Origin: Trigonopsis variabilis
Lineage: Eukaryota > Ascomycota > Trigonopsidomycetes > Trigonopsidales > Trigonopsidaceae
DNA: 64,000 nucleotides
Direction: 5' to 3'
Assembly (NCBI GenBank): GCA_003707065.3
Contig: PPXM03000002.1
Span: 1,302,001 to 1,366,000, forward strand
The translations under genes were made by a program, and so were the position numbers. The notes under the pieces were generated by a model that worked only from the letters and a program-made list of their open reading frames with translations, had not been told where the DNA came from and did not search any database. Shown here in pieces: positions 3,004 to 40,270 of the stretch. Each line of letters begins with the position of its first letter. Position 1 is the first letter of the stretch.

Positions 3004-4079
3004 ATGCGAGCCAGTTTACGTCTGCTCTTTCAACAAGCGAAAATGTCGACAAATCCAGCAATTTATAAGATGAATCATACCATGTTTGTTTTAAGAAATG
3101 AAATATAGCTAAGACTTATAGGTTAAGAGTGAAAGACCCGAAAAGAACGATTGATTTCTATCAAAAGCACTTTGGCATGTCATTGATTAACACTTTACCT
3201 CAACCTGAGGCAAAATTTACACTTTACTTTCTTGCATTTGATCCTGCAAGCTCAGAAAATCACGGACGGCCTTGGACTGATCGGTAAGGATACTACGTAA
3301 GAATGAGGCTGACAGGATGAAGAGAGGGATTGTTGGAACTGACTCATAATTGGGGCACCGAAAGTGATTGTAATTACACAATTAATAATGGAAATCAAGA
3401 ACCTCACCGAGGGTTTGGTCACATCTGCTTTTCGGTGGATAATATTCAAGTGACGTGTGATTATCTGGAAAAGAGCGGAGTCAGGTTCCAGAAGAAACTG
3501 ACAGATGGCCGTCAGAAAGATATTGCATTTGCGTTGGATCCTGATGGATATTGGATTGAATTGATCTCCAATAAGGTTATTACTCCAACAGAAGGCAAGA
3601 CTGATTCGAGTACTTATCGGTTCAACCACTCGATGATTCGGGTCAAAGATCCAGAGGCATCTCTAAACTTTTACCAAAAAGTTCTTGGAATGACGCTACT
3701 TCGAACTTCAGAGCATCCAGGTGCAAAGTTCACTCTTTACTTCTTGGGTTACAACCGTGATCCCAAGTTCGTCTCGAACTCTGGTGAAGGAGTCTCTGCT
3801 CGAGAGGGAATTATCGAGCTAACTCATAACTGGGGGACCGAAAAGGATCCTAATTTCAAGTATCATAATGGCAATGATGAGCCTCAAGGATTTGGTCATT
3901 TTGCTATTGTGGTGGATGATTTGAAAGCCGCTTGTGACCGGTTCGATAGTTTGAATGTGAATTGGAAAAAGCGCCTTACTGATGGTCGAATGAAAACTGT
4001 CGCTTTCATTCTCGATCCCGATAATTACTGGATCGAGGTCCTTCAAAATCAGGCTTTAGGAACCCAAGGTAAAATCTGA
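3004..4079 (+). CDS. GLO1: Glyoxalase I, two-domain (lactoylglutathione lyase)
   Basis: This enzyme isomerises the hemithioacetal of methylglyoxal and glutathione to S-lactoylglutathione. Proposed exons are 3004(or 3043)-3083, 3122-3283 and 3323-4079, with introns of 38 and 39 bp. The second acceptor was chosen because it restores the frame into the REG-LLELTHN strand. Starting at 3043 gives 319 aa, close to yeast Glo1 (326 aa), with two fused VOC modules. Each module shows the metal ligands in order: NHT/NHS histidine, (L/I)ELTHN glutamate, GFGH histidine and YWIE glutamate. A second in-frame ATG 39 bp upstream adds a basic, hydrophobic 13-residue lead starting MRASLRLLF that resembles a mitochondrial presequence. 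Both starts are plausible; the downstream AAAATG context is stronger. Confidence in function is high; exon edges are by eye. Confidence 0.92.
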
Positions 4080-13885: not shown

Positions 13886-14780
13886 TGTCGTCAGGTTTGC
13901 TTAACGGTGTCGCTTCGCTGGTGATGCAATCTTCGCATGTGGGGGAGGTGTTCAACGGCTCTCTCAAAACGGCAATCGTATCTACTAATGGACTAAAAGG
14001 CTGCATTGCGCTGCCGAGGTACCTGGTCTTCTGATCTTCTATTTGCTTATATCTTGTAGAATAAGGTATAGATAGCGCACAGAACAAAGGAAATGAATGT
14101 TTGTACAACCGCACAGCAGATCTTCCTAGCTTCAAAACGATAATGTCGCTCAAATAACAAGACAACCCGAAGTTCAAGGATATCGTTTTGTTAATTGTTG
14201 TAAAATGACGATGAGAATATAGCATCTGATTTCTAAAAATGTCTATGAAGCTGGATGTGACAGAACTTCCTGAGGTATTTCAGGCTGTCTTTGTTTCTAG
14301 TCATCGCTGCATCATTGCGTGACTATAAAGTCGAGTCTCATATCATTTCCATTCATATTCTCACTGCTCCTACTGCTCTTGACGTTCACTTGCTTTAGTT
14401 CTATAATCCATGAAAGTCTTTCTCGTATAAGTGCACGCCTATATCAATCTTGTCGGAAATTCTATTGGTTGAGTAGTCCAAGAGACTTTACTCCTGCCGT
14501 GGGAATGCCTGGGGAAGGGCCTTCTTTTTTTCCCTTGAGCACACATGTGTTTCCTTTATTTGGTTTTCCGCCATTGGCTTTGTTAAATACCATGCTAATT
14601 TAGGGAAAAAAATAAATGCTTTCTCTAGTGACCAACCACATTTGGACAGTTTGTTCTACTTGGCCTATGTCTACTCAGGCTAGTCGATCCAAAGAAACTC
14701 ATTCAACTACAGTAACTAATGGATTATATGTACTACAGCTCAATCACTAAAATATAATTAAAATTGCACGACCCTTCTAT
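13886..14780. other. Intergenic region upstream of THYN1, downstream of ACC1
   Basis: A minus-strand frame from the ATG at 14006 runs 42 codons with ordinary codon use (starting MQPFSPLVD) and ends inside the THYN1 start. It may be an upstream ORF in the THYN1 leader or the last exon of an unrecognised small gene. No other gene is seen; 14226-14780 is AT-rich without motifs I can name. Confidence 0.35.
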
Positions 14781-25958: not shown

Positions 25959-27722
25959 ATGAAATTCTTCTATCAGCCTGATAGAGAATTATTAATGCCT
26001 GATGGCACTCCAGTTCCTGGAACAGAAGTCTTGGTTGATATTGACAGACATGAGGCGGACCATATTTTGGAAGGAAAGAATAATGTTATTCTTGTTCCTC
26101 AGCCATCAAGACATCCAGATGACCCTCTGAACTGGTCACCTTTGCGGAAATGGACAACATGGGCTCTGGTAGTTTATTATTCCTTGATGCAAGGTGCTAA
26201 TACTGCATCTCAGAACTCGTCATTAAGCCAGATCGGTGACTCATTGGGTTTCGAGATCGATGTCATGGCCAATGGTAACGGATATCTGTTCTTGTTTGCT
26301 GGTATAGGTTGCTTATTCTTTCAACCTTTTGCTCTTGCCTTTGGGCGTCGTCCTATTTTCCTTTGGTCTTTAATTTTCGGTGGAGTTGTCGGGTGTATCT
26401 GGTGGAATTATGTCGGTGAAGGTAACGAAGGAAATTTCTATGGTAATCGAATGATCTCTGGTCTTTTCACATCTCCTGTTGAGAGCTTGCCTGAGGTCGT
26501 GGCAGCTGACCTGTTCTTTATCCACCAGCGTGGCCGAGCTCTATCCATGTATTTCGCTGGATTAGTCCTCTTCTCTTTCTTGGGTCCTTTAGCAGGCGCT
26601 TTCGTGCGTGGTTCTATGGGCTGGCATTGGATCAATAACTTTTTGGCCATTTTCTCTGCTGCCGGTGCAGTTGCAATTTTCTTCTTCATGGAAGAGACTT
26701 ACTGGGAGCGAGATACTCAAAATCCGGTAGTGCTGGAGGCGGAATTAGAAGCTATTGAGTCCAAGAAACAATTAAGTGAAAAGGGCGAAAACGGTGAAGC
26801 TGGCGAGAAATCAAATCTTGATATAGAGAATGAGGCGGAATTTGATGGAGCAAAAAAAATAGAAGGTGAGGCTGACAAGCCTTATGCCGAGTCTGCTGAT
26901 GCTATAACTCAGGCTGGTCGGATCGATCATTCACTCCCTCGTCGGACCATATTGGAACGATTTCCTGTCTTCTACTTCCGCAAAAAGGGTCATGTTCGTG
27001 ATCAATGGAAGGTTTTCTATCACGCTTTTATCAATAACTTCCTTGTCTTCTTTACTCTCTGGCCTGCTTTCTGCGCCGGTATCCTAGTGGCCTCGGGTCT
27101 AGCCTGGTATATGGTCTTGGCGAACACCGTATCGACCGTGTTGTCTTCTCCTCCTTACAACTTTGGTTCCACTGGTCTCGGTCTTATCTATATCGCCCCC
27201 AGTATTTCCACTATCCTCTGTCTTTGGTGGGGTGGTGACCTCTCTGACTGGGTTTGCCTCAAACTTGCTCGTCTAAATGGAGGTATCCGAGAACCTGAAT
27301 TCAGATTCTATGTTGGAATCTTTCCCGTCATCCTTTCGCCCTTAGGGCTTTGGCTCTATGGCGTTGGCGCTGCGAAGGGTATACATTGGGTTGGTATCGC
27401 TTTTGGTTACGCTTTCACAGTCGTGGGAAGTAGTATGTCTCAGTCAATCGGATATGCTTATGTGTTTGATTGCTACCCAAAGCTCGGTGCTGAGACCATG
27501 GTCACAATTATCATTCTTCGAAACGTCATCGGTGGCTTTGCCTTCAGTTATGCGATCACTCCTTGGATAAACACCGATGGAATGCAAAATACCTTCGTGA
27601 TCTTGGGTATCTTGTCGATGGTCTTTTGGCTCCTCACTATCCCTCTCATCTTCTGGGGCAAGCAATTGAGACGCAAGACAAACAAGTGGTACCTGCGATT
27701 ATCAAAGCATTCTGTTCATTGA
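25959..27722 (+). CDS. MFS transporter, DHA1/HOL1-like
   Basis: This 587-residue membrane protein has the fungal signature HPDDPLNWSPLRKW before TM1, twelve predicted hydrophobic segments, the A-motif-like GRRPIFL after TM2, and a long acidic cytoplasmic loop (about residues 255-330) between the two halves. This layout matches fungal DHA1 drug:H+ antiporters close to yeast Hol1, which carries polyamines and cations. The substrate cannot be read from sequence. The gene is intronless. It converges on the adenine deaminase gene with 265 bp between stops. Confidence 0.8.
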   Translation: MKFFYQPDRELLMPDGTPVPGTEVLVDIDRHEADHILEGKNNVILVPQPSRHPDDPLNWSPLRKWTTWALVVYYSLMQGANTASQNSSLSQIGDSLGFEIDVMANGNGYLFLFAGIGCLFFQPFALAFGRRPIFLWSLIFGGVVGCIWWNYVGEGNEGNFYGNRMISGLFTSPVESLPEVVAADLFFIHQRGRALSMYFAGLVLFSFLGPLAGAFVRGSMGWHWINNFLAIFSAAGAVAIFFFMEETYWERDTQNPVVLEAELEAIESKKQLSEKGENGEAGEKSNLDIENEAEFDGAKKIEGEADKPYAESADAITQAGRIDHSLPRRTILERFPVFYFRKKGHVRDQWKVFYHAFINNFLVFFTLWPAFCAGILVASGLAWYMVLANTVSTVLSSPPYNFGSTGLGLIYIAPSISTILCLWWGGDLSDWVCLKLARLNGGIREPEFRFYVGIFPVILSPLGLWLYGVGAAKGIHWVGIAFGYAFTVVGSSMSQSIGYAYVFDCYPKLGAETMVTIIILRNVIGGFAFSYAITPWINTDGMQNTFVILGILSMVFWLLTIPLIFWGKQLRRKTNKWYLRLSKHSVH

Positions 27723-27987
27723 TTTTTTTTTAGTATGTAATTTCTTGATTATAGAATTCCTGGTATACATTGTTATGTAAAAGGAAAAAAGCTGCCGCCA
27801 ACCTATAAGGGGCGCGCAGTTTTCTACCTGCAGCATTGCCGATCTTCTGTTGCTGCAAGAGTCGATCGAGATCGAGAGAAAAATATAAAAGAACAAAAAA
27901 CTCGCGCAAGCTAGAGAAACTTACATAGGCAATTAATTATAATACAAGGATTTTCTCTTAAGTGATAAAATGTCGAGTGGAAGGTTT

Positions 27988-29078
27988 TCAGATAGGAATG
28001 CGGTACTTGAGAGCAAGGCCTGATAGTTCATCGAGCAGTTCACGGCGACGCGAGTCAGATATCCAAGAGGCATTGATAGCATTCCTTGTCAACTGTAAGA
28101 GCATGGAATCATCAAAAAAGTCACCATGCGCACGCTTGAAATGATGATCAAGTTGATGGAAATTATCATCTATATACCCACGAAAGTAGGCAGGATCATC
28201 GGAATTAATAGTTATCGCACATCCTCTTCTCAAAAGGGAGATCAAAGGCAACTCGGTAAGATTAGAGACCACTTTTAGAGAAACATTCGACAGCGGACAG
28301 ACCGTCAAGGGAATTTGGTGGGTGGCTAGATAATCAACGAGCTCATCATCTTCTGAGCTTCGTATTCCATGATCTATACGTTCAACACCACACAAATGTA
28401 AAGCTTCCCAAACATACTCAGGAGGACCCTCCTCGCCAGCATGGGCAGTTAGGCGAAATCCTAGTTCTTTAGCCCTGACGAATGCATCTTTGAATAACCT
28501 AGGTGGACGGCCAGACTCGCTAGAACATAATCCGATGCCAGAGATCCAGGATCTAAGATTGGCATCCAATTTCCCAGCTGATTCAACAATATCCAAAGCC
28601 CCCTGAGGATCAAGGTGACGAACAATGCAAAGGATCAGTGAGGAGCTGACCCCATACTTCTCCTGAGCTTCGTTGCACGCCTCTGCCAACCCTTCCACAA
28701 TAGTCGATAAAGGAACACCTCGGATGACATGCTGCTGAGCGTCAAAAGATAACTCAGCATGTCTGACATTAGCCTTGATGGCACGATCAAAGTATGCTCG
28801 AGCTAGGTCTCGAAAGTCTTGCTTAGTCTTCAAGACACTATGTCCATGGTAATAAAGATCAAGAAAGGACTGAAGATTGGAGAAATCGTAAGCTTGTCTT
28901 AACTCCTCTACAGAAGAGAACGGAATCTCGATTTCATTTCGTCTTGCAAGCTCAAATAAGAGTTCAGGCTCCAACGTCCCTGGGAAATTAGTGTGACATA
29001 GCAACTGGTACGCTCACCTTCAATGTGGAGATGGAGCTCTGCTTTAGGAAGATCTTTCAAAAGTCCAGCGCGAGACAT
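27988..29078 (-). CDS. AAH1: Adenine deaminase (Aah1 type)
   Basis: It converts adenine to hypoxanthine in purine salvage. Exons 29018-29078 and 27988-28979, with a 38 bp intron that splits the glycine codon of HIEG, give 350 aa, like yeast Aah1 (347). Visible are the metal-binding HLH of ELHLHIEGTLEPE, the catalytic HAGEEGPPEYVWEAL, RIDHGI and NSDDPAYF. The features FLDLYYHG and LILCIVRHL place it in the fungal adenine- rather than adenosine-deaminase branch. The start is the ATG at 29078, just before the conserved LLKDLPKAELHLH. Confidence 0.92.
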
Positions 29079-29519
29079 AGTACAAGAATACTTCGATGTC
29101 AAATCTTTTTCATCTGATTCAGCCTCGGAAACTCCCGAAAGAGATAAAAGACGTTGCCGTTTACGTGCGGCGATGAAGTACAGGAGAGCACGTACATTAC
29201 TGGCACAATTGGTCGTTCCTGCCTAAGTGGCACGTACGTAAGGTCTCTTCATCTACCGATGCATTGGACAAAGCTTAAGTAAAAAGTATTTATCGTATAA
29301 CGCATAAGGCTGTAAAATATCATATCATTAAGTAAGTATGGTAAAGCCATATTTCGGACCTTCTCACGCACTCAGTGGACAGGCAAATCGATGACAGTAA
29401 TTACAAATCACGAGTGAAAGACATAAGTCAAAATGTATTAAATATCCTACTTTCATAACTGTCGATTGTTCATCCCACATTCATAGCAAAGTGGTCCTCA
29501 GATTATCCAAGGAGACTTT
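29079..29519. other. Intergenic region, AAH1 upstream / LGD1 downstream
   Basis: These 441 bp hold the AAH1 promoter and the LGD1 3' end. I see no gene and no strong motif. Confidence 0.4.
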
Positions 29520-31091
29520 TTACTCATCATAAGGTACTTCACCTTTCAAATTAGAGACATTATCAAGAATGGATTTGGCCTCGGGAGAGTTCCAAAAAGA
29601 ACCCTTTGGATAGCCGTATTCTTTCCAAGCTCTGGGCTTAACTTGGACTGAATATCCTGGCTCAAGAGGGGTTACAACATGGCCGTTCTTATGTAAGGAA
29701 GGATACAGGAAAAATTCATGAAGATGGTCGACGTACTCCAATAGAGATTTCCTTCCAGAGACAACAATATAATCCACAGTCGATATATGTTGAGTGTACT
29801 CCGGAAGACCGACACCACCGGAGTGAGGGACAACGGGGACGTCAAACCTGAAATGTCAGCCACATCTTTGGCCTTAGAAAACTTACTTCTTGGCCAATAG
29901 TAACACAGCCATCCACTCGTTAACACCGCCTAGTCGACAGGAATCGACCTGGCAATAGTCGATGGCATGAGCCTGCAAAAATTGCTTGAACATCACACGA
30001 TTCTGGCACATCTCACCAGTTGCAACTTTAACTCCATGAGGTCCAAGGGCCTCTTTTATTCTTAAATGACCAAGGACATCATCGGGGCTAGTAGGCTCTT
30101 CAATAAACCTGAGAGATCAGAATCGTTCATTAAATAACTCACCATGGTTTAAACTGAGATAATTTCTTGACCCAATCAATGGCCTCATCGACTGACCAGA
30201 CCTGGTTGGCATCAATCATGATAGTATATTTGTCATCATATCCCAAAACCTCTCTAACCAGTTTTAATCGTCGGATGTCGTCCTCAACAGATCCGCCAAC
30301 CTTGAATTTAAACTTTGTAAATCCTTGATCCACTGCTTCTTTGATAAGGCTCTTCATCTTCTCATCATCGTAACCCAACCACCCAGCGGAGGTCGTATAG
30401 ATGGGAACTGCTGTATTATTGATAGCCTCCTTTATTCTCTCTTGTTTGCTCTGTGCGTTCTCTTCTAGAAGGGCAACAGCTTCTTGAGGGCTAAGTACGT
30501 CGGAGATATATCGGAAGTCAATACATCGAACATATTCTTCGGGACTCATGTCGGCAATGATTTTCCAGACAGGCTTCTTAAGAACTTTTCCCCACAAGTC
30601 CCAGAGAGCATTAACAACAGCTGCTAACGCAAGGTGGACAACACCTTTCTAAGAACGTTAGATGCCTTATGTCTCAGATGAGAAACACGTACCTCTGGTC
30701 CCAGCCAACGGATTTGACAGTCTTGGACTAAATATCTCCAAGTCTTGCCAAAGTTTTCCGTCAATTCTTCAATTGTTTTACCTCGGACCCGTTCAGCGAT
30801 ATATTTAATCGCTTGACAAACGACATCTGTTCCGCGGCCGATAGTAAAAGTCTAAAAGTTAAAACCGGTTGATAAATCTTCTAGTACTTACCATTCCATG
30901 ACCTTCGAGATCAGAATCGGTCACTAAAATCACATAAGCAGCCGAATAGTCTCCCGATTCATTCATTGCATCCGAGCCATCTCCGGACAAAGAAGTCTAT
31001 ATTGATTAATTCAGGGCACAGGAACAATGCCTTAACTCACAGGAAAACGGATATCTTTAGTAGCATAGCCAGTGATTGTACAGCCAGTCAT
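29520..31091 (-). CDS. LGD1: L-galactonate dehydratase (enolase superfamily)
   Basis: Step 2 of fungal D-galacturonate breakdown: L-galactonate to 2-keto-3-deoxy-L-galactonate. Six exons (31041-31091, 30892-30996, 30693-30851, 30143-30648, 29887-30108, 29520-29847) with five introns of 34-44 bp give 456 aa. The protein tracks Trichoderma LGD1/Aspergillus GaaB almost block by block: [44 protein letters not shown]. Superfamily catalytic features are the KxK of [34 protein letters not shown] and [12 protein letters not shown]. The family also contains L-fuconate dehydratase (ENOSF1), so a 6-deoxy substrate is the main alternative. It is divergent from the MFS gene and sits next to an LGA1-like aldolase cluster. 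Confidence 0.93.
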
Positions 31092-31700
31092 GTTGAAATT
31101 GAGGAAGAATTGCTGATTCTATGATACATAAATGGTTTACTTATGGATAATTGTTACCTTTCTTCCCCATGTTTTCCTGTCACTTGCTCTTTCCCCCACC
31201 GATAAACGGCGTGGGGGTCAAGTGTCCGGTTGGCCAGTCATCCCCGCATCGGTACCTTCCTAAACCGGTAGGCTCGTTTTCCATCTCTAGCTTCCCCAGC
31301 TTTCTCCCTTTCTTGGCTCCGAGTGTCACGGAAAATTGAGCGCCAAAATGAGAACCAAAACGTGGGACGAAAAAGGTGAGCCATGACAGAATTGATCCAA
31401 AGCCCTAATCTCTGGCCCCCCCGTGAGATAGGAAAGCACATTCGTGGGGGGCCTCATCACGGAAAGATGATCCTAGCGGATTCCTAGTTTGGATCGTATC
31501 AAATTAGGCTAGAAAATATTATAAATCTTTTGAAGAGTAGTTTTAGTTATCGCTGTCACGGGTAACTAGGTTCCTATCATCAAGATCTATCAGTGATTGC
31601 TTGGTAAGTCCGGTCGACCCCGCATCGCTCATAGTGGAAGGAACACCTAGAAAATTATATAAAGGTACGCGACCATGTGGGATGAGACAAGCTGTCAGAC
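31092..31700. promoter_or_regulatory. Divergent promoter of LGD1 and the Dal5-type transporter
   Basis: A 7 bp inverted repeat CCCCCAC / GTGGGGG (31193-31199 and 31211-31217) encloses an everted CCG-N5-CGG triplet pair (31199-31209) of the Zn2Cys6-factor type. A second pair, GGCCCCCC (31414-31421) and GGGGGGCC (31446-31453), lies nearer the transporter; GTGGGG is at 31444-31449. The GTGGGG cores fit the Mig1/CreA consensus SYGGRG. Confidence 0.55.
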
Positions 31701-33194
31701 ATGTCTCTTAAACAAGACGAAGAATTTGTTGAACGAATTGAAAGCGATGATTTGAAATTGCAGGATACTCAGGACGCGCAGTCTGTCAATGTGGAAGCGG
31801 TCTCTGATGAGGAATGGCGAAGGTTACTTTGGAAGATTGATCTTCGAGTCCTCCCCTATCTTACAGTCTGTTATGCGTTCTTCTATATTGATAAAACGAC
31901 TCTCTCTTACGCGGCAATTTTTGGAATTAAAGATGATTTGAATCTTCAAGGAACTCAGTACTCCTGGCTCTCATCTATCTTTTACTTTGGTTACCTGGCA
32001 TGGGCCTTTCCTACCAACTACTTCTTGTTAAAGCTTCCCGTTGCTAAATATCTTGGATTCAATATCTTTCTTTGGGGCGTTTTCCTTATGATTCAAGCTG
32101 CTTGTAACTCATTCGGCGCTCTTGCTGCTGTCCGAGCTCTAGGGGGAGCTGCTGAAGCTTGTGCCGATCCTGCTTTTTTGTTAGTCACCGGCATGTGGTA
32201 TACTCGACGTGAACAACCGATTCGAATCGGCATGTGGTATACTGCAAACGGACTGGGTATCGCATTTGGTGGTCTAATAGGATATGGCATTGGCAACATC
32301 AAAGGAAGCCTGCCTAGTTGGAAGTACGAGTTCCTTATTATTGGGGCTGCTTGTGCTCTTTGGGGAATTGTTATCATGTTGTTCTTGCCTGATAACCCAG
32401 TCAATAATCGATTCTTTACTGAAAGAGAAAAGAAACTTGTCATGGAGCGCATTCGAGAGAACCAAACTGGCATTGAAACTAAAGTCTGGAAATGGTCTCA
32501 AGCCAAGGAAGCTTTTACTGATTACAAAATTTACTGCTTCTTCTTACTCGCTTTGGTCAGCAACATCCCTAACGGAGGTATCTCTAATTTTGGTACTCTT
32601 ATCATTCAAGGATTCGGCTTCTCAACCCTAGTGACAACTCTATTACAGATTCCCAATGGTGCTATAGTATCAATATCCATCTTGATCGCCGTTTTCCTGA
32701 ATGATCGCTTCACCGTTAGATACAAGAAAAATCTCCGTGTGTTTTTCTTGGTCTTGTTCATGCTACCGAATATCTGTGGATCTTTTGGCCTTTACTTCGT
32801 TGCTGAGAAACACAGAGTTGGTCGGTTAATCTGTTATTACCTGACCGGCCCTTATAATGCAGCCTTTGTCTTGATGCTCTCCCTTACGACCAGTAACATT
32901 GCAGGTCATACAAAGAAATCAATCAATAATGCAGTCATGTTCTTGGGCTATTGCGTTGGAAATATTGCTGGTCCATTTTTCTATAAGACTTCCCAGGCTC
33001 CCCGTTACCCGTTAGGTATGGGATCTATGATCTTTGCCAACTTGGCTGAAATAATTCTGGCTATTTCGTTGGCCCTATTTATGAAGAGAAAGAACACGAT
33101 TCGCGACCAAAAACAAGGAGGCGAAATTAATTATGATCACGCTTTTGACGATCTTACTGACAACGAGAATCCCAATTTCCGTTATGTATATTAG
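31701..33194 (+). CDS. MFS transporter, anion:cation symporter (Dal5/Tna1) family
   Basis: The intronless 497-residue protein has the Dal5-family lead (EEWRRLLWKIDLRVLPYL), then YAFFYIDKTTLSYAAIFGIKDDL and SWLSSIFYFGYLAW, which are signatures of the ACS family. Twelve hydrophobic segments are visible. Members import organic anions such as allantoate, nicotinate and pantothenate; bacterial relatives carry hexuronates and aldonates. Placed head-to-head with L-galactonate dehydratase, an acidic sugar or sugar acid is the likeliest substrate, but this is inference from position. Confidence 0.85.
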   Translation: MSLKQDEEFVERIESDDLKLQDTQDAQSVNVEAVSDEEWRRLLWKIDLRVLPYLTVCYAFFYIDKTTLSYAAIFGIKDDLNLQGTQYSWLSSIFYFGYLAWAFPTNYFLLKLPVAKYLGFNIFLWGVFLMIQAACNSFGALAAVRALGGAAEACADPAFLLVTGMWYTRREQPIRIGMWYTANGLGIAFGGLIGYGIGNIKGSLPSWKYEFLIIGAACALWGIVIMLFLPDNPVNNRFFTEREKKLVMERIRENQTGIETKVWKWSQAKEAFTDYKIYCFFLLALVSNIPNGGISNFGTLIIQGFGFSTLVTTLLQIPNGAIVSISILIAVFLNDRFTVRYKKNLRVFFLVLFMLPNICGSFGLYFVAEKHRVGRLICYYLTGPYNAAFVLMLSLTTSNIAGHTKKSINNAVMFLGYCVGNIAGPFFYKTSQAPRYPLGMGSMIFANLAEIILAISLALFMKRKNTIRDQKQGGEINYDHAFDDLTDNENPNFRYVY

Positions 33195-33839
33195 GGCTTT
33201 TTCCTAACTGATGATATGATGTGCTATGATGAGCTTTGATGCCTTGCTTTTTTGTTGATATTAGTTAAAACTTTTGGTGATTAATTATGCGCAGTAGACT
33301 GAAATATCGCTTGGTCTTGTATCTCGCTAAGCTCTCGCGTGTTGCTCCGGGAAAGCTTGAAGTAAATGGTGATAGTGTTACTACAGAACAGATAAGCCAA
33401 GACGAAAAAAACACGGCTATTGTCAGCTTTGAAAAATCCTAATAAGAGATGAATAATATAAGTGGACACTAGTCACGAGTGGGACCTTGTTGAAACTTTT
33501 AGCGACGACTATAGGCCAACAAGAAGAGGAGACCTCCTCCGGCAATCCTCCTCGATTTCATTTTATGACAAATAGTATTGATTTATTTTTGGTCTCTTGA
33601 TATTGACTGATCTGTCAACCGGATCCGCATTGGAATCGATGGACCCCCACGTTTACATCCCCACATTTTCGCTCGCTCTGATGCGGCTTGACTCCGGACC
33701 CCGGACCCTCAAGGACGAGCATCCCTGAGTGGGGAGAAATTAGATCCCCCATCTTCTGATACCCCGAATCAGGCAACGTCAGTCCACTTCAGATATATTT
33801 TCTATCTTATACGCCAGGGCGATCCTTTCTCTAGAGGTT
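33195..33839. promoter_or_regulatory. Promoter region of the hydroxyacid oxidase
   Basis: Three Mig1/CreA-type sites lie in the 200 bp before the ATG: CCCCAC at 33645-33650 and 33659-33664, and GTGGGG at 33729-33734. CGG-containing steps (CCGGACCCCGGACC) lie around 33692. No gene is seen in 33195-33600. Confidence 0.5.
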
Positions 33840-35007
33840 ATGTTTTCCTTAAAGGATTTTGAGACAGCGGCACTGGCAAAGGTCGACAGTCAGACTCGCG
33901 GATACTGGCAAGGAGGAGCTGGATCACTTGAAACTGTGAAAGATAATCTAAAAGCATTTCAGAATTACAGGCTCCGTCCTCGAGTGATGCGAGATGTCTC
34001 AAGCGTCAACATTCGGCCGGATCAGGATGTCTTTGGAGTACGACCTGCTATACCGTGTGGAATTGCTCCGGCAGCCTGGCAAGGCCTTGCAACTTCTAAA
34101 GCTGAACTGGCCACCGCTGGAGCCGCCAAAGAAAGAGGGTGGGTCATGGGTTTGTCTTCATACTCGAATGAGAGGTTAGAGAGCGTCAAGGACATAGGAG
34201 GTGATAACGCGGTGGCCTTCCAGCTATACATTTTTCAGAACCGCAAAGTTACCGAAAACCTAGTCCGTCGAGCAGAGAGTAAGAAGTGTCAAGAATATAG
34301 AAGCTAACTTTCTAGAGGCGGGATATAAAGTGATTGCTCTTACCGTGGATACTCCCTATCTGGGTAACAGGATAAACGAAGCTCAGAATGACTTTACAAT
34401 GCCTGCCCACCTAAAAGCTGGGAACTTGGATGGCGATGGATTGGTCGACCTTGCCTCAGTGAGAAATCAAGCGCTTCAAGGGACTCAATCTGGTGGTAAT
34501 ATTGTGGACGCAAGTATCAACTGGGAGAGAGATATTGCGTGGCTTAAGAGTATCACTTCTCTCAAGATCTTTGCTAAGGGTCTCTTACATCCTGCTGATG
34601 TCGATGCCGCTATTTCTGCCGGCGTTGATGGAATCTGGGTCTCCAATCACGGTGGCAGACAGCTCGATTTTGAGCAGCCAACGTTAGACGCGTTACCTGG
34701 TATTGTCGCAGAAGTTCGGGGGCGCGTACCAGTGCATTTTGATGGAGGGATCCGATGTGGAAGTGACATTTTTGTTGCACTGGCTTTGGGAGCAGACTTT
34801 GTGTGGATGGGAAGACCGACTTTATGGGGCCTGGCTGTTGGAGGCCAAAGTGGCCTTGAAAAGCTCTTGAGCTTATTAGAGAGTGAATTCCGTCTTACCA
34901 TGGCACTATGCGGATGCAGATCCGTGTCGGATATCTCGCCTGATATGCTCGTCTTAAAAGATGGGCATGGTCGATATACCCAGGCAGTTGAGCGGGCAAG
35001 ACTGTGA
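33840..35007 (+). CDS. FMN-dependent (S)-2-hydroxyacid oxidase, peroxisomal
   Basis: Exons 33840-34278 and 34316-35007 around a 37 bp intron (branch AGCTAAC) give 376 aa. This is the single-domain glycolate/lactate-oxidase type, without a cytochrome b2 domain. Aligned with plant glycolate oxidase it keeps the active-site Tyr in TRGYWQGGAG, the QLYIFQNR tyrosine, the FMN lysine in KIFAKG, the catalytic His and Arg in VSNHGGRQLD, and the FMN phosphate loop DGGIRCGSDI...GRP. The last three residues, ARL, fit a PTS1 peroxisomal signal, as expected for an H2O2-producing oxidase. It lies inside the galacturonate-type cluster, but no such step is in the known route. L-lactate, glycolate or L-glycerate are reasonable substrates. 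Confidence 0.88.
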
Positions 35008-35262
35008 GTTAAGTGGGCCTGAACTCGGTTCTGGGGGGTCTAGGGACACAACGGTGTCGCCCAAATAGGGAATAGATGGGGGGTCGGCCTATCTTCTAGT
35101 GGGATGATGCAGAGTGGGGGCCCGACCCCCCCCTTTTACTGCCCGTTTTGTGGGGAACTATGAGTGATAACCAATCAAATTAGCTAATAGATATGATAGT
35201 CCTTATAATATGTGGGGAAATTGTCGTAACGTGACTTTAGGTCTTTATATTTAAGTAGAAAG
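35008..35262. promoter_or_regulatory. Promoter of the keto-deoxy sugar acid aldolase
   Basis: Three GTGGGG cores (35114-35119, 35150-35155, 35212-35217) lie within 150 bp of the ATG. A longer G/C-run pair (GGGGGGTCGGCC at about 35078 and GGCCCGACCCCCCC at about 35119) forms an imperfect inverted repeat. The sites fit the Mig1/CreA consensus. Confidence 0.5.
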
Positions 35263-36249
35263 ATGCCCGAACTGGATAATCCAGCCATGACTTTAGAAAT
35301 TGTGCCCAACAGCGTCCAAGCTGGCGTTTACGTTCCTACTGTGACTTTCTTCAAAGCCGATGGCAGCATTGACACCGATGAACAAGTCAAATATTCAGTT
35401 TGGCTTGCTAATGCGGGTATCACTGGTCTCGTCATCTTTGGCTCAACTGGTCAAGCTGTCTATACCACTTTGGAAGAAAGAATCAAGACCATCAAGGCCG
35501 TCATTCAAGGCCTTGAACAGGCGGGATTCAAGAATTATCCTATTTTAGCCGGCATTGCTCAGGAGAACGCGAAGGTTGCCGTTGAAGAATTAAAAGCTTT
35601 GGCCGCTGCTGGAGCCCCTTTCTCTCTTGTCCTTGCTCCCCACTATTTTGCAGGTTCAAGTACTCAAGAAGGTGTTTGCCGATGGTATGAAGAGGTTGCT
35701 TCTGCTTCTCCTATTCCCATCATGATTTACTACTACCCCGGCGTTAGCAATAACCTCGACATCTCCATTGCTTCGTTTGAGCGGCTGGCTGCTCATAAGA
35801 ACATTGTCGGATGCAAATTGTCACACGGTAATGTTCCCCATCACATTCTCTTGAGCGAGAACAACCCCGTTGTCGCCGGTAATGATTTCTTGACTATGAC
35901 TGGATTTGGGCAACAGTTACTCGCTGCTTTGGCCGTCGGTTGCCCTGCCACCATCGACGCCCTTGCCGGCGTATTCCCAAAGGTTTGCTTGGCCATTGTC
36001 AAAGCTTTCAATTCGGGAGATGTTAAGAAGGCCGCTCAGCTACAGTATCTCTTTACTCGAGGTATTGAGATCACAGCCAAGTATGGTCCCACCGGAATCA
36101 AGACTTCATTAAGGAAGAGTTGGGGATTTGGACCCAAATCCGGACCCCGATATCCTTTACTCGAATCAATTCCTGACGCCGATAATGAGTGGGAAGCAAA
36201 CTGGAAAGATGTCTACGGTGCTCTTAAGAAATTGGAAAATGAGCTCTAG
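35263..36249 (+). CDS. LGA1: 2-keto-3-deoxy-L-galactonate aldolase (DHDPS/NAL family)
   Basis: Step 3 of fungal galacturonate breakdown: cleaves 2-keto-3-deoxy-L-galactonate to pyruvate and L-glyceraldehyde. The 328-residue intronless protein is a class I aldolase barrel: AGVYVPTVTFF start, LVIFGSTGQA loop, the catalytic Tyr region PIMIYYYPGVSNN, and the Schiff-base lysine in NIVGCKLSHGN. The same landmarks occur in Trichoderma LGA1/Aspergillus GaaC (YPGVSNN and NIVGTKISHG). It is about 40 residues longer than bacterial DHDPS, mainly at the two ends. Other fungal DHDPS-family proteins of unknown substrate exist, so the assignment leans on neighbouring LGD1. Confidence 0.82.
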   Translation: MPELDNPAMTLEIVPNSVQAGVYVPTVTFFKADGSIDTDEQVKYSVWLANAGITGLVIFGSTGQAVYTTLEERIKTIKAVIQGLEQAGFKNYPILAGIAQENAKVAVEELKALAAAGAPFSLVLAPHYFAGSSTQEGVCRWYEEVASASPIPIMIYYYPGVSNNLDISIASFERLAAHKNIVGCKLSHGNVPHHILLSENNPVVAGNDFLTMTGFGQQLLAALAVGCPATIDALAGVFPKVCLAIVKAFNSGDVKKAAQLQYLFTRGIEITAKYGPTGIKTSLRKSWGFGPKSGPRYPLLESIPDADNEWEANWKDVYGALKKLENEL

Positions 36250-36654
36250 AAAATAATTGACAATAATATAATGAGTAAATGGTATTTTTATTCCTCTAGA
36301 CTCTGTGATTACTGTTATAATGCGAAGCCATCCTTCGTCACAATGCCGTACCATCAAAATTCAGTTCAATGATCACACCTTTAAAAGGGTTCAACTTGCC
36401 GCAGGCGCTGTTTCCAAACACGTGGCTCTCACGCTTTGGAGTAATTGACCTCAATAAATTGCCCATTGTACTCATATACCAAAGTTGCTCATATTTTGTC
36501 TTTATTTCGGTTTGGAAACATCCAGAAACGACGGCCAATTATGTCTAGGCTAGGTAGTCACGTCAGTAAAGAGAACCCCCACGTCATAGGTTGTGGTGGT
36601 AACCCTGAGGGGAGAGGAGTCTATAAAAGGACTTGAGAGTCATTCTAACCCCCA
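36250..36654. promoter_or_regulatory. Promoter region of the aldo-keto reductase
   Basis: A CCCCAC core (36577-36582) is followed by ACGTCA; another ACGTCA half-CRE lies near 36560 and a CACGTG near 36420. A TATAAAAGG box (about 36621) sits about 30 bp before the ATG. Confidence 0.5.
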
Positions 36655-37575
36655 ATGTCCCCATCCTATCCTACTTACAAACTCGGCAACGGTGATCCAA
36701 TTCCAGGGCTCGGCCTCGGTACTTGGCTTTCTGCTCCTGGTGAGGTTGCCAATGCCGTCGAAATTGCCTTGAAAAACGGCTATCGACACATTGATGGTGC
36801 CGCAATCTATGAAAATGAAACCGAGGTTGGCGAAGGCATCAAGCGATCTGGTGTTCCCCGCTCGGAGATCTTTGTTACGACGAAGTTATGGAATAACAGC
36901 CACCGCGCTGAAGAGGTCGAGAAGGCCTTAGATCTTTCGCTCAAGAAACTCGGTCTTGACTACGTCGACTTATACTTGATTCACTGGCCTTCTGCTTTTA
37001 AGCCAGGTGGAGCATTGATCCCCAAGGATGCCAATGGCAAAGTTGAACTGGACGATGTTCCTGTGAAGGAAACCTGGCAAGCTCTTGAGAAGCTGGTCGG
37101 ACCTGATAAGAAGGCTCGAGCAATTGGTTTGTCTAATTTCAGTATTAGACAATTAGAAGAGGTCTACAGTTACGCCAAACACAAGCCCGATGCTCATCAA
37201 ATCGAACTTCACCCTTATATTTATGACGCTGAACTGGTCGATTGGCACAAGAAGCACGGCTTACTCATCGAAGCCTACTCTCCCTTCGGAAATCTTAACC
37301 CCATCTATGGTAACAAGATTCCCAAATTGATTGAGAATGCTACTGTTGTCAAGGTCGCCAAGGCTCACGGAGCGACATCTAACCAGGTTCTTGTCTCTTG
37401 GGCTATTGCTCATGGCTTCGTTGTTCTTCCCAAGTCTGTGCATGAGAAGAGAATCATTGAGAACTCAAAGATTATCGAATTAAAGCCTGAAGAAGTCAAG
37501 GAACTGGATTCCATTGCTGGCCCTTATAGATTCAATGATCCTTCTGAGGACTGGGGCTACAAGTTCTTCGTTTAA
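36655..37575 (+). CDS. Aldo-keto reductase, GLD1/GCY1-like
   Basis: This 306-residue NADPH-dependent reductase has the AKR tetrad: Asp and Tyr in HIDGAAIYENE, Lys in VTTKLW, His in LIHWP. It also has GLSNFSI and the cofactor segment VLPKSVHEKRI. It resembles fungal glycerol dehydrogenase/L-glyceraldehyde reductase (GLD1, GaaD-like) more than D-galacturonate reductase (GAR1). In the cluster it would therefore reduce L-glyceraldehyde to glycerol (step 4). It is strongly codon-biased and has a TATA box, which suggests high induced expression. AKR specificity is hard to read from sequence, and it could instead serve step 1. Confidence 0.85.
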   Translation: MSPSYPTYKLGNGDPIPGLGLGTWLSAPGEVANAVEIALKNGYRHIDGAAIYENETEVGEGIKRSGVPRSEIFVTTKLWNNSHRAEEVEKALDLSLKKLGLDYVDLYLIHWPSAFKPGGALIPKDANGKVELDDVPVKETWQALEKLVGPDKKARAIGLSNFSIRQLEEVYSYAKHKPDAHQIELHPYIYDAELVDWHKKHGLLIEAYSPFGNLNPIYGNKIPKLIENATVVKVAKAHGATSNQVLVSWAIAHGFVVLPKSVHEKRIIENSKIIELKPEEVKELDSIAGPYRFNDPSEDWGYKFFV

Positions 37576-37823
37576 AAGTATATATGATGAACTAGATAGT
37601 TTTAGCATTTTTTGGTAGTCCTTATCGTAGATTGCTGCCGTTCTCTCGAAGGGCGTCACACACATTTGTTCGAACGTTCCTTGTCGAGTACTCTGATAGA
37701 CGTGAAAGAGATTTTACTAAGGCCTCTCTCTACGCTTTCTCTCTGTTGGCAGCTATGTCTTTTTTGCTATCGTGAATATTGATTACGTGTAACGGACGGC
37801 GATAGGTATCCCGAGCGGCGAAG

Positions 37824-39727
37824 ATGAGCGGAGAAACCCACATCGCCATGAATGAAAAGGCGACAGTGATAGGTTCGAAAAGTCCTCTAGCATGGAAGGC
37901 AGACGCTAGTTCTTCATATTATAGAGGTCTCCCTCGAGTGATCTTGGGTCGTTTGATTGCTGTGGCTCTTGCGCTTTTTGTTATCTGTAGGCTCGATAAT
38001 GTTATAGAGGCTGACATATAGGCCAATTTACAGTTACGGAGAATAATGGAGCAGGCTATGGGCCAGATTTGCCTCCTCCAGGACTATCGAATGTGACTAT
38101 AGCATCCAATGGAGCGGTAGCATGCGACGTTCCTTACTGTTCTTCTCTTGGTGTGGATATTTTACGAAAAGGAGGAAATGCTGTAGATGCAGCAATCGCG
38201 ACTTCTTTCTGCATTGGCGTCGTGAATATCTTTAGCAGTGGCATAGGAGGTGGAGGCTTTATGGTGGTCCGTCCGTCTCCTGAAGACTATGAACACCAAT
38301 CGCTGGCCATTAATTTCCGAGAAATGGCTCCCAAGGCTGCTTTTAAACATATGTATGATAAGGAACCTACCGCCAGTCAAATCGGAGGACTTGCTGTTGG
38401 TGTCCCTGGAGAAGTCATGGGTTTATATCGAGCCCACGAAATTTATGGCAAACTGCCTTGGAAGGATCTGATCAGACCATCCATAGATCTGGCTCGGAAT
38501 GGATTTGAGGTTTCAGAAGTGCTTGAAGTATATCTCTCATTCATCCCCCAATTATTTACTGAACTGAATACTAATGGAGGATGGGACTTTCTTTACAACA
38601 AAGAACAAGACAGACAAGTAATAAAGGGGGAGGTCATTTATCAACCTGAGCTGGCCGTGACATTAGAAGAAATTGCAAACCATGGCCCTGAAGCTTTCTA
38701 TCACGGGCGTATTGCCGAAAAGCTGGTATCCACGATTCAAGACTATGGAGGCATAATGACTCTAGAGGACTTTAATTCTTACTATGTTGTCGTGGAAGAA
38801 CCGATAAAAGCCTGGTTCCACGGTCGAGAGATTCTAACGACCAATGCTCCTTCTAGCGGGCCAGCTTTGGTTTTTGGTTTAAATATTATAGAAGGGCTAG
38901 ATTTAAGAGGAGAAACGGACCCGCTGTCAAGCCATTATATCATCGAATCAATGAAATGGCTAAGTGCGGGTCGGACAGAACTGGGAGATCCTCATCCTGA
39001 TGACCCCGATAATGATGCTCGTGTCGCAGAAATAATGTCCAAGGAATGGGCAGCTCATGTCAGAGGAAACATTTCTGCTAATCATACGAATCCTTGGCAA
39101 TCTTATGGACCCGCGTTCGAGCCCAATGAGCCTCATGGAACTGCCCATTTGAGTACCCTTGATTCAGATGGTATGGCTGTTAGCTTGACCACTACTGTGA
39201 ACTTATTATTTGGGTGTGGTGTCCGTGACCCTACTACTGGTATCGTGCTGAATTCTCAAATGGATGATTTCGCTCAGCCATTTAGACCGAATGCTTATGA
39301 ACTAGCGCCATCAATATTTAATTTTGTTAGACCTGGGAAGCGGCCGCTATCATCCACTGCTCCCACGATCGTATCATTTAATGATCGGACAGAGCTTGTG
39401 CTTGGAGCAGCCGGAGGTTCAAGGATCGTGACGACCATTTTTGAAGCTCTTGTACGGATATACAGACACAGACTACGGTTAATAGACGCAATCTATCTTC
39501 CTAGACTTCATCATCAGCTTTTGCCCGACACAGTCTTTTATGAGAGCGACGTTCCTGATCGAATACTAGAAGGCCTAAGGACTCGAGGACATAATACAAC
39601 ATGGCAGGGACTCGGGCGCTCGGTTATGAATGGGATCCATCAGCTTCAAGGAAGGCCTCAGGGTAAACGAGAGATCCATGCGGTTTCGGACTGGTGGAGG
39701 AAACGAGGACAAGCTGCAGGATATTAG
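37824..39727 (+). CDS. ECM38: Gamma-glutamyltransferase
   Basis: It starts glutathione turnover in the vacuole or at the cell surface. Exons 37824-37986 and 38034-39727 with a 47 bp intron give 618 aa. An N-terminal hydrophobic signal-anchor (VILGRLIAVALALFVI) is interrupted by the intron. The large subunit begins at ASNGAVACDVPYCSSLGVDILRKGG-type sequence. The small-subunit nucleophile is the Thr of HGTAHLSTLD, and the later GSRIVTTIFE helix is conserved. The donor was chosen to rejoin the frame at FTENNGAGYG. It converges on TRS20, with 25 bp between the stops. Confidence 0.93.
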
Positions 39728-39752
39728 AATTTGGACCATATCTGCAGCGAGA

Positions 39753-40270
39753 TTAAAGATATTTTCTAGCTATAGCTGTTATTCGTTGGGCAAAGATTGG
39801 ACTGTCAATAGGAGAATTTGTCGAATAGAATGGAGACATGAGAGTTTTGACATAGAGATCGTAAATTTCTTGAAAGACTTGGCGGATAGCTTCCTCGTTC
39901 TTCGATTCATGAAGTAAAAGAAATTTGATGTCTATATGGGGTTAGATGCACTTGCGAGATATACGTACTTCCGGGAGAAATAAAGGCTGAGATGAGATAG
40001 TTGTAGAACTGGTCGATTTGTTTAAGATAAAGTGCATTATCGGTCCATTGGTTTTCTTCGACCAAATCCAATGAAGAATGAAGAACAAACGGATTCAATT
40101 GTTTCATTTCTGGCGGAAACTAGAGAATGAGATTCCAGCTCAACACTATTTAGACAACACTATTTAGACTTTACCTTTGCTATTCCATCGCCGCCCTGTT
40201 TAAAAGTCCCAAATTCATATTGAAATAAAGGAGTGTCATGAGCTCCGATGATGACAAAATAATATGACAT
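39753..40270 (-). CDS. TRS20: Sedlin/TRAPPC2, TRAPP vesicle-tethering subunit
   Basis: It is a core subunit of the TRAPP complexes in ER-Golgi traffic. Three exons (40175-40270, 39969-40119, 39753-39931) with introns of 55 and 37 bp give 141 aa, the normal sedlin length. Key matches: MSYYFVIIGAHDTPLFQYEF, LNPFVLHSSLDLVEENQW, LKQIDQFYNYLISAF, KFLLLHESK, YDLYVKTLMSPFY and NSPIDSPIFAQR. No single exon is long enough to stand out as an ORF, so the gene is visible only after splicing. Intron 1 contains a perfect tandem 14 bp duplication. It is divergent from TIM23 across 155 bp. Confidence 0.93.

Follow-up and report, generated by a model that had tools for sequence, protein, structure and literature searches.

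Two pathways described in fungi are closest to the genes considered here. D-galacturonate is broken down by GAR1/GaaA, LGD1/GaaB, LGA1/GaaC and GLD1/GaaD, and Trichoderma reesei metabolizes L-fucose through FUR1, FDH1, LGD1 and LGA1 (PMC12370193). We have analysed a block of five adjacent genes of the ascomycete Trigonopsis variabilis, located at positions 29520–37575 of a 64,000-nucleotide stretch of contig PPXM03000002.1 (the window). They encode an LGD1-type dehydratase, an MFS transporter, a flavin mononucleotide (FMN)-dependent (S)-2-hydroxyacid oxidase, a DHDPS-family aldolase and an aldo-keto reductase (AKR). The dehydratase, aldolase and AKR families are those of the D-galacturonate pathway, and the first two are also common to the L-fucose pathway.

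The block differs from both systems. Unlike the D-galacturonate genes it has all five members together, and it adds a galactonate/Dal5-type transporter and the FMN oxidase. An earlier reading of the locus (the sequence-only reading) had called the LGD1, LGA1 and GLD1 genes often dispersed; there is an exception in Rhodosporidium toruloides, where the LGD1 and LGA1 homologues are linked and have a common promoter (PMC6918025). The dehydratase gene of the present block is instead head-to-head with that of the transporter. Moreover, the galacturonate carriers of R. toruloides and of ascomycetes are described as sugar porters, whereas the carrier here is of the galactonate/Dal5 kind. The T. reesei L-fucose pathway would yield L-lactaldehyde, and an (S)-2-hydroxyacid oxidase could finish the corresponding acid. 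In contrast to that pathway, the ten window proteins scanned with Pfam include no short-chain dehydrogenase, fucosidase or Zn2Cys6 regulator. Nor did the scan find an L-fucose dehydrogenase, fucosidase or fucose permease among the eight genes in 25959–39724, where the MFS gene at 25959 was not compared with a fucose permease. Each family, and the pairing of dehydratase with aldolase, is already known; the five-gene arrangement is a variant.

On balance we favour, by a modest degree, a co-regulated cluster, probably repressible by glucose, that handles a galacto-configured sugar acid (the D-galacturonate and/or L-fucose trunk), with the oxidase as a co-regulated accessory. The trunk itself is probable: the transporter would bring in an organic acid, the dehydratase would convert an L-aldonate (L-galactonate or L-fuconate) into a 2-keto-3-deoxy acid, and the aldolase would cleave this to pyruvate and L-glyceraldehyde or L-lactaldehyde. 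The AKR would provide a reduction, either of uronate to aldonate (step 1) or of aldehyde to alcohol (step 4). For the oxidase to participate, the aldehyde would have to be oxidized rather than reduced, by an enzyme encoded elsewhere, to give an (S)-2-hydroxyacid. The oxidase would then be a low-flux peroxisomal accessory that is switched along with the other four proteins.

A sequence motif common to the promoters of the block

The five genes are served by four promoter regions, since the dehydratase and transporter genes diverge from one of them. The hexamer CCCCAC is present 10 times (3, 3, 3 and 1 copies) in the 1,914 bp of these regions. The unmasked remainder of the window has six copies in 23,076 bp; this control comprises sequence outside frames picked by eye from lists of open reading frames (ORFs), and unannotated exons remain within it. 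A smaller control of 13 regions and 20,188 bp, from which the stretches at 13939 and 59733 were omitted, contains four. Elsewhere in the whole window there are 10 copies, two of them within genes of the block (30590 and 35638). Upstream of the adenosine deaminase, gamma-glutamyltranspeptidase (GGT) and MFS genes that flank the block there are none.

Dinucleotide shuffles of the four promoters contained on average 1.08 copies, and none of 2000 reached 10. A hexamer of any sequence found in all four promoters with at least 10 copies arose in 3 of 300 shuffle sets, and some heptamer with at least six copies in 2 of 300; the family-wise chance of the motif is about 0.01. The extended form CCCCCAC is found six times in the block promoters versus once in the 23,076-bp control. 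Of a 9-mer containing the hexamer, ACCCCCACG, the window has three copies: one in the dehydratase/transporter promoter, one in that of the oxidase and one in that of the AKR. A search of the four promoters for spaced dyads gave nothing clear beyond the CCCCAC core.

On the other strand CCCCAC reads GTGGGG, in keeping with the CreA site SYGGRG (PMC5795998, PMC5847190). SYGGGG, a pattern picked after the hexamer had been seen, has 15 matches in the 1,914 bp of promoter and 14 in the 23,076-bp control. In Aspergillus niger all 124 screenable genes that rise under gaaR overexpression have at least one SYGGRG (PMC5847190). Single sites are thus common in that species, so that it is the clustering of CreA-type sites that counts rather than their presence. 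We take the enrichment of CCCCAC in the four promoters, with its match to the CreA site, to mean that the five genes are likely to be under joint glucose repression. The sequence-only reading had grouped all five as a unit, and the motif, which extends to the oxidase promoter, supports this.

Organization of the locus

The coordinates are collected in Table 1. That the five genes are adjacent, in the order and at the positions given by the sequence-only reading, proved exact. Reading, splicing and translation of 29520–37575 leave all five frames intact, and no other gene-sized ORF lies between them: the longest ATG-started ORF in the intergenic gaps has 67 aa. Apart from the five genes and their pieces, the longest in 29014–38014 has 126 aa and runs antisense within the transporter gene. 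The Pfam families are MR_MLE_C with MR_MLE_N, MFS_1, FMN_dh (382.7 bits), DHDPS and Aldo_ket_red, in agreement with all five assignments. The idea of a block for sugar-acid catabolism is supported. By the same scan the flanking genes belong to other kinds. No Rfam family matched 27000–40000 at gathering thresholds.

Table 1. Features of the five-gene block and its flanks (window coordinates)
Feature	Position	Strand	Remarks
LGD1/GaaB/ENOSF1-clade dehydratase (enolase superfamily; L-galactonate/L-fuconate type)	29520–31091	-	6 exons, 456 aa; spliced model, Pfam, PDB matches
Divergent promoter of dehydratase and transporter	31092–31700		609 bp; CCCCCAC on either strand at 31193, 31211, 31444
MFS transporter, D-galactonate/Dal5 kind	31701–33194	+	497 aa; Pfam MFS_1, NCBIfam
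Oxidase promoter	33195–33839		CCCCAC at 33645 (inside ACCCCCACG), 33659, 33729
FMN-dependent (S)-2-hydroxyacid oxidase	33840–35007	+	376 aa; one 37-nt intron, 34279–34315; C-terminal -ARL
Aldolase promoter	35008–35262		CCCCAC at 35114, 35150, 35212
DHDPS-family aldolase, LGA1/GaaC-like (by family and neighbours)	35263–36249	+	328 aa; Pfam DHDPS
AKR promoter	36250–36654		CCCCAC at 36577, inside ACCCCCACG
Aldo-keto reductase, GAR1-like or GLD1-like	36655–37575	+	306 aa; Pfam Aldo_ket_red
Adenosine deaminase (flanking)	27988 onwards	-	Pfam
GGT, directly after AKR	37824–39727	+	Pfam

The dehydratase gene has five GT-AG introns of 34–44 nt each. Together with the 37-nt intron of the oxidase gene, such short introns may help to place the fungus. 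The uL1 frame of the window has its best scores with uL1 chains of 60S type, which in our view points to a fungus without placing it more closely. A second MFS gene is located at 25959, and a two-domain glyoxalase gene at 3321–4079, some 25 kb from the block. The PDR-1 core regulon of Neurospora crassa lists a putative gamma-glutamyltransferase, an allantoate permease and a glyoxalase, and genes of these kinds are also present in the window. The GGT gene has a low codon bias and lacks CCCCAC upstream.

The dehydratase, the aldolase and the AKR

Aligned with proteins of solved structure, the dehydratase scores 527 bits with 4ip4, 503 with ENOSF1 (4a35) and 463 with the L-fuconate dehydratase 1yey. 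Below this fuconate-dehydratase clade (460–527 bits) the next family scores only 113 bits, a clear preference; the clade is, we assume, that of the fungal L-galactonate dehydratases. The catalytic motifs of the solved enzymes are kept, including VPHSGG, and are taken to hold the catalytic KxK and the metal-binding D/E/E and H residues. The sequence does not single out L-galactonate, L-fuconate or D-arabonate as the substrate, and the published enzymes are promiscuous. As cited in PMC12370193, A. niger GaaB has ten times the activity on L-fuconate that it has on L-galactonate, and the same paper reports that T. reesei lgd1 and lga1 are induced by both D-galacturonate and L-fucose. Both observations agree with the suggestion of the sequence-only reading that one dehydratase/aldolase pair could also serve L-fuconate.

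Among proteins of solved structure the aldolase is closest to 3qfe (128 bits), itself a putative member of the DHDPS family, and then to a 4-hydroxy-2-oxoglutarate aldolase. Its segments GCKLSHG and IYYYPGV correspond to GVKLTCA and IYNFPGV in 3qfe, presumably the positions of the Schiff-base lysine and the active-site tyrosine of the DHDPS fold. The aldolase has GSTGQA where the 4-hydroxy-2-oxoglutarate aldolase has GSNGEF, with glutamine in place of glutamate. We call the protein LGA1-like on the basis of its family and its neighbours, the latter because in R. toruloides the genes homologous to LGD1 and LGA1 are linked.

Over 285 positions the AKR shares 44% of its residues with 4gac, an AKR1A-type protein that ranks first among the PDB matches both of the whole AKR and of its C-terminal third. 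A call of GAR1 or GLD1 from these neighbours was dropped, as the top rank of 4gac does not separate the two. Lys260 and Arg266 sit nearly at the place of the pair named for contacting the NADPH phosphate in TrGar1 and AnGar1; such a pair is common to AKRs in general. Gar1 of T. reesei, the step-1 enzyme, was itself modelled on AKR1A1 (PMC7642425). The yeast AKR Gcy1, 47% identical to Gar1, reduces D-galacturonate and has its highest kcat on DL-glyceraldehyde (PMC8622349). The AKR of the block therefore cannot be fixed as GLD1, and may be GAR1 (step 1), GLD1 (step 4) or both. The statement of the sequence-only reading that no step-1 reductase is visible is accordingly not established, GAR1 being a relative of the AKRs.

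The transporter and its bacterial counterparts

The best of the four NCBIfam models listed for the transporter is the D-galactonate transporter TIGR00893, at 207.4 bits and thus under its cut-off of 395. This fits the earlier label of Dal5 type, Dal5 being in our understanding a member of the TIGR00893-type family. The protein is a candidate sugar-acid carrier. An annotated allantoate permease of N. crassa, NCU02653, falls into the most pectin-specific expression cluster and into the PDR-1 core regulon (PMC3933009, PMC5469009). This pectin-induced permease was set aside in one published transporter screen.

A scan of prokaryotic genomes with the dehydratase gave 100 relatives, of which 80 were kept (49–57% identity). 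Their neighbourhoods were searched with tblastn at E values of at most 1e-8. Of the loci kept, 63 span at least 15 kb, so that short flanks may hide some neighbours. NCBIfam was run on chosen ORFs of loci L046, L018 and L072. A transporter of the block type lies near nine of the 80 dehydratases, with 21–26% identity and always divergent, as in the window. These nine loci (L059, L064, L067, L068, L070, L071, L072, L079 and L080) come from Streptomyces or Pseudonocardia, and the transporter is of galactonate type by NCBIfam on L072. The aldolase and AKR types are each found near one of the 80, and no counterpart of the whole five-gene block was seen among them.

The recurrent divergent pairing, the rank of the D-galactonate model and, if NCU02653 is a relative, its pectin specificity would all suit a transporter that takes up the aldonate directly (L-galactonate, L-fuconate or D-arabonate), so that step 1 is not needed and the AKR reduces the aldehyde. 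We consider this quite unlikely, as the TIGR00893 score is below the cut-off and the AKR may be a uronate reductase. Transporters of TIGR00893 type also carry many other acids, which counts against it as well.

The FMN oxidase

The oxidase resembles the peroxisomal glycolate and hydroxyacid oxidases, such as HAO1 and plant glycolate oxidase. It shares 148 of 349 aligned positions with HAO1 (42% identity), and a Pfam scan found its FMN_dh domain and no cytochrome b5 domain. Seven residues that we take to form the active site of the (S)-2-hydroxyacid oxidases are kept (Y22, Y130, D158, R165, K234, H258 and R261). The chain ends in -ARL, which we read as a type 1 peroxisomal targeting tripeptide; the C-termini of the remaining four are PYDE, RYVY, ENEL and KFFV. 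The oxidase is thus apparently located in the peroxisome, as judged from the tripeptide. The active-site set is a strong, though not absolute, sign of S-2-hydroxyacid oxidase activity (PMC8491902). The description as a peroxisomal-type (S)-2-hydroxyacid oxidase in the sequence-only reading consequently stands, with the location as a prediction. In scans of viral contigs the oxidase had no match; the dehydratase had two pattern matches, neither of which was confirmed.

Three positions have been linked to specificity, being T/W/V in glycolate oxidases and M/L or V/F in lactate oxidases (PMC7020209). HAO1 and plant glycolate oxidase have T/W/V, whereas the block oxidase has A78, Y108 and G206, the last adjacent to an alignment gap and less sure. 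Tyrosine at the tryptophan position also occurs in a bacterial L-lactate oxidase chain. The A/Y/G triad argues against an ordinary glycolate oxidase. It does not name a substrate, because PMC7020209 excluded fungal proteins for their accelerated evolution and the single fungal enzyme assayed in PMC11238220 has a broad range, with glycolate best. L-lactate is our tentative first choice; L-glycerate comes second and is unlikely. In Aspergillus nidulans the use of rhamnose converts L-lactaldehyde into L-lactate (PMC9699597).

Glycolate would be the substrate if the block served D-arabonate, whose dehydration and cleavage would give pyruvate and glycolaldehyde, with the oxidase acting as a glycolate oxidase on the resulting glycolate. 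LGD1 is reported to be active on D-arabonate (PMC12370193), and one bacterial route for pentoses yields glycolate (PMC6336799). Set against these are the A/Y/G triad in place of T/W/V, and the five genes include neither a pentose nor an aldehyde dehydrogenase; we regard this route as highly improbable.

The oxidase could also act on the sugar acid itself, as a peroxisomal aldonate 2-oxidase that forms a 2-keto-aldonate in parallel to the dehydration. The idea arises because the changes from T to A, W to Y and V to G place smaller residues at all three specificity positions than in glycolate oxidases, and because the candidate aldonates L-galactonate, L-fuconate and D-arabonate are (S)-2-hydroxyacids. 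To our knowledge no member of this oxidase family carries out aldonate 2-oxidation, and we hold the idea to be very improbable.

FMN enzymes near LGD1-like dehydratases are found in bacteria too. In L046 (Mycoplana dimorpha) the FMN gene lies directly 3′ of the dehydratase gene and scores 443.6 with the L-lactate dehydrogenase subfamily (cut-off 376); on the other side is a weak fuconolactonase match (89.9, cut-off 400). In L018 (Pseudoxanthomonas helianthi) the FMN gene, at 289.7 under the same cut-off of 376, follows a FucP-type permease gene (318.3, cut-off 280.4) and is ~7 kb from the dehydratase gene. Like the block, these loci have an LGD1-like dehydratase with an FMN (S)-2-hydroxyacid enzyme in its neighbourhood. 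Unlike it, they encode FMN enzymes that resemble LldD, with 32% identity to the block oxidase, and neither locus has a match to a DHDPS-type aldolase. A bacterial dehydrogenase/hydrolase route leads from 2-keto-3-deoxyfuconate to lactate without an aldolase (PMC6336799), and L046 and L018 may encode this or another route. By analogy only, the linkage gives weak backing to the idea of fucose-to-lactate conversion.

The place of the oxidase in the block

By codon adaptation the AKR (0.585), the aldolase (0.532), the dehydratase (0.499) and the transporter (0.493) are third, fourth, seventh and eighth among 20 window frames. The reference is small (319 codons, from a uL1 and an H4 frame in the window), with the dehydratase and the transporter mid-high in it.

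Several observations weigh against the reading that we favour. Codon adaptation of the oxidase is 0.387 (17th of the 20 frames), with a 95% bootstrap interval of 0.347–0.430 that does not overlap those of the other four. Because its codon bias is below theirs, the oxidase is probably not a high-flux step, or is a later arrival in the block; the low bias speaks against a part in the main flux. At the specificity positions A78/Y108/G206 it matches neither the glycolate pattern nor the cyanobacterial/algal L-lactate pattern. An FMN enzyme is near the dehydratase in only three of the 80 bacterial loci (L018, L027 and L046; 31–32% identity). No aldehyde dehydrogenase or sugar dehydrogenase is encoded among the five genes. 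The sequence-only reading had proposed an oxidative branch through glycerate or lactate; its final oxidase step is kept here as a proposal, and the aldehyde dehydrogenase that it requires is missing from the block. As to the promoters, the sole CCCCCAC of the control, at 13939, is upstream of an unrelated EVE-type gene. Among inducer sites, CCNCCAAT, CCNCCAA, two GGCTAA-like patterns and Gal4-like dyads were sought, and none is common to the four promoters. The GaaR-type CCNCCAA has a single match in them, at 36649, overlapping the AKR start codon.

Some of these points would equally be expected if the AKR, dehydratase, aldolase and transporter made up a cluster for D-galacturonate or L-galactonate and the oxidase were a mere bystander within it. 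The oxidase has a low codon bias like that of the flanking GGT (0.373), FMN_dh is rare beside the bacterial dehydratases, the specificity residues are off both published patterns, and the paper on galacturonate in R. toruloides does not use the words 'FMN', 'lactate' or 'oxidase' in its main text. However, the oxidase promoter contains three copies of CCCCAC, one of them inside the block-only 9-mer ACCCCCACG, and the gene sits between those of the transporter and the aldolase. We therefore think a bystander role rather unlikely, and retain the oxidase as a co-regulated accessory of the sugar-acid cluster.

DISCUSSION

The five-gene set, including its galactonate-type transporter and peroxisomal oxidase, did not appear in the literature matches listed; PMC5488244, on galacturonate-induced genes of A. 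niger, mentions 'FMN-dependent' once, so that a precedent is possible. Among the matches listed, none joined 'lga1' to 'glycolate oxidase', or FMN oxidases to the use of sugar acids by fungi. The FMN oxidase is without a known job in the galacturonate or fucose pathway, and we do not claim the link as unreported.

The breakdown of galacturonate and that of fucose in fungi appear to share a dehydratase and an aldolase, and the fate of the aldehyde and the nature of the acid carriers are less settled. The promoter element common to the block narrows these matters to a short list of genes, and raises a role for a peroxisomal 2-hydroxyacid oxidase in the use of sugar acids.

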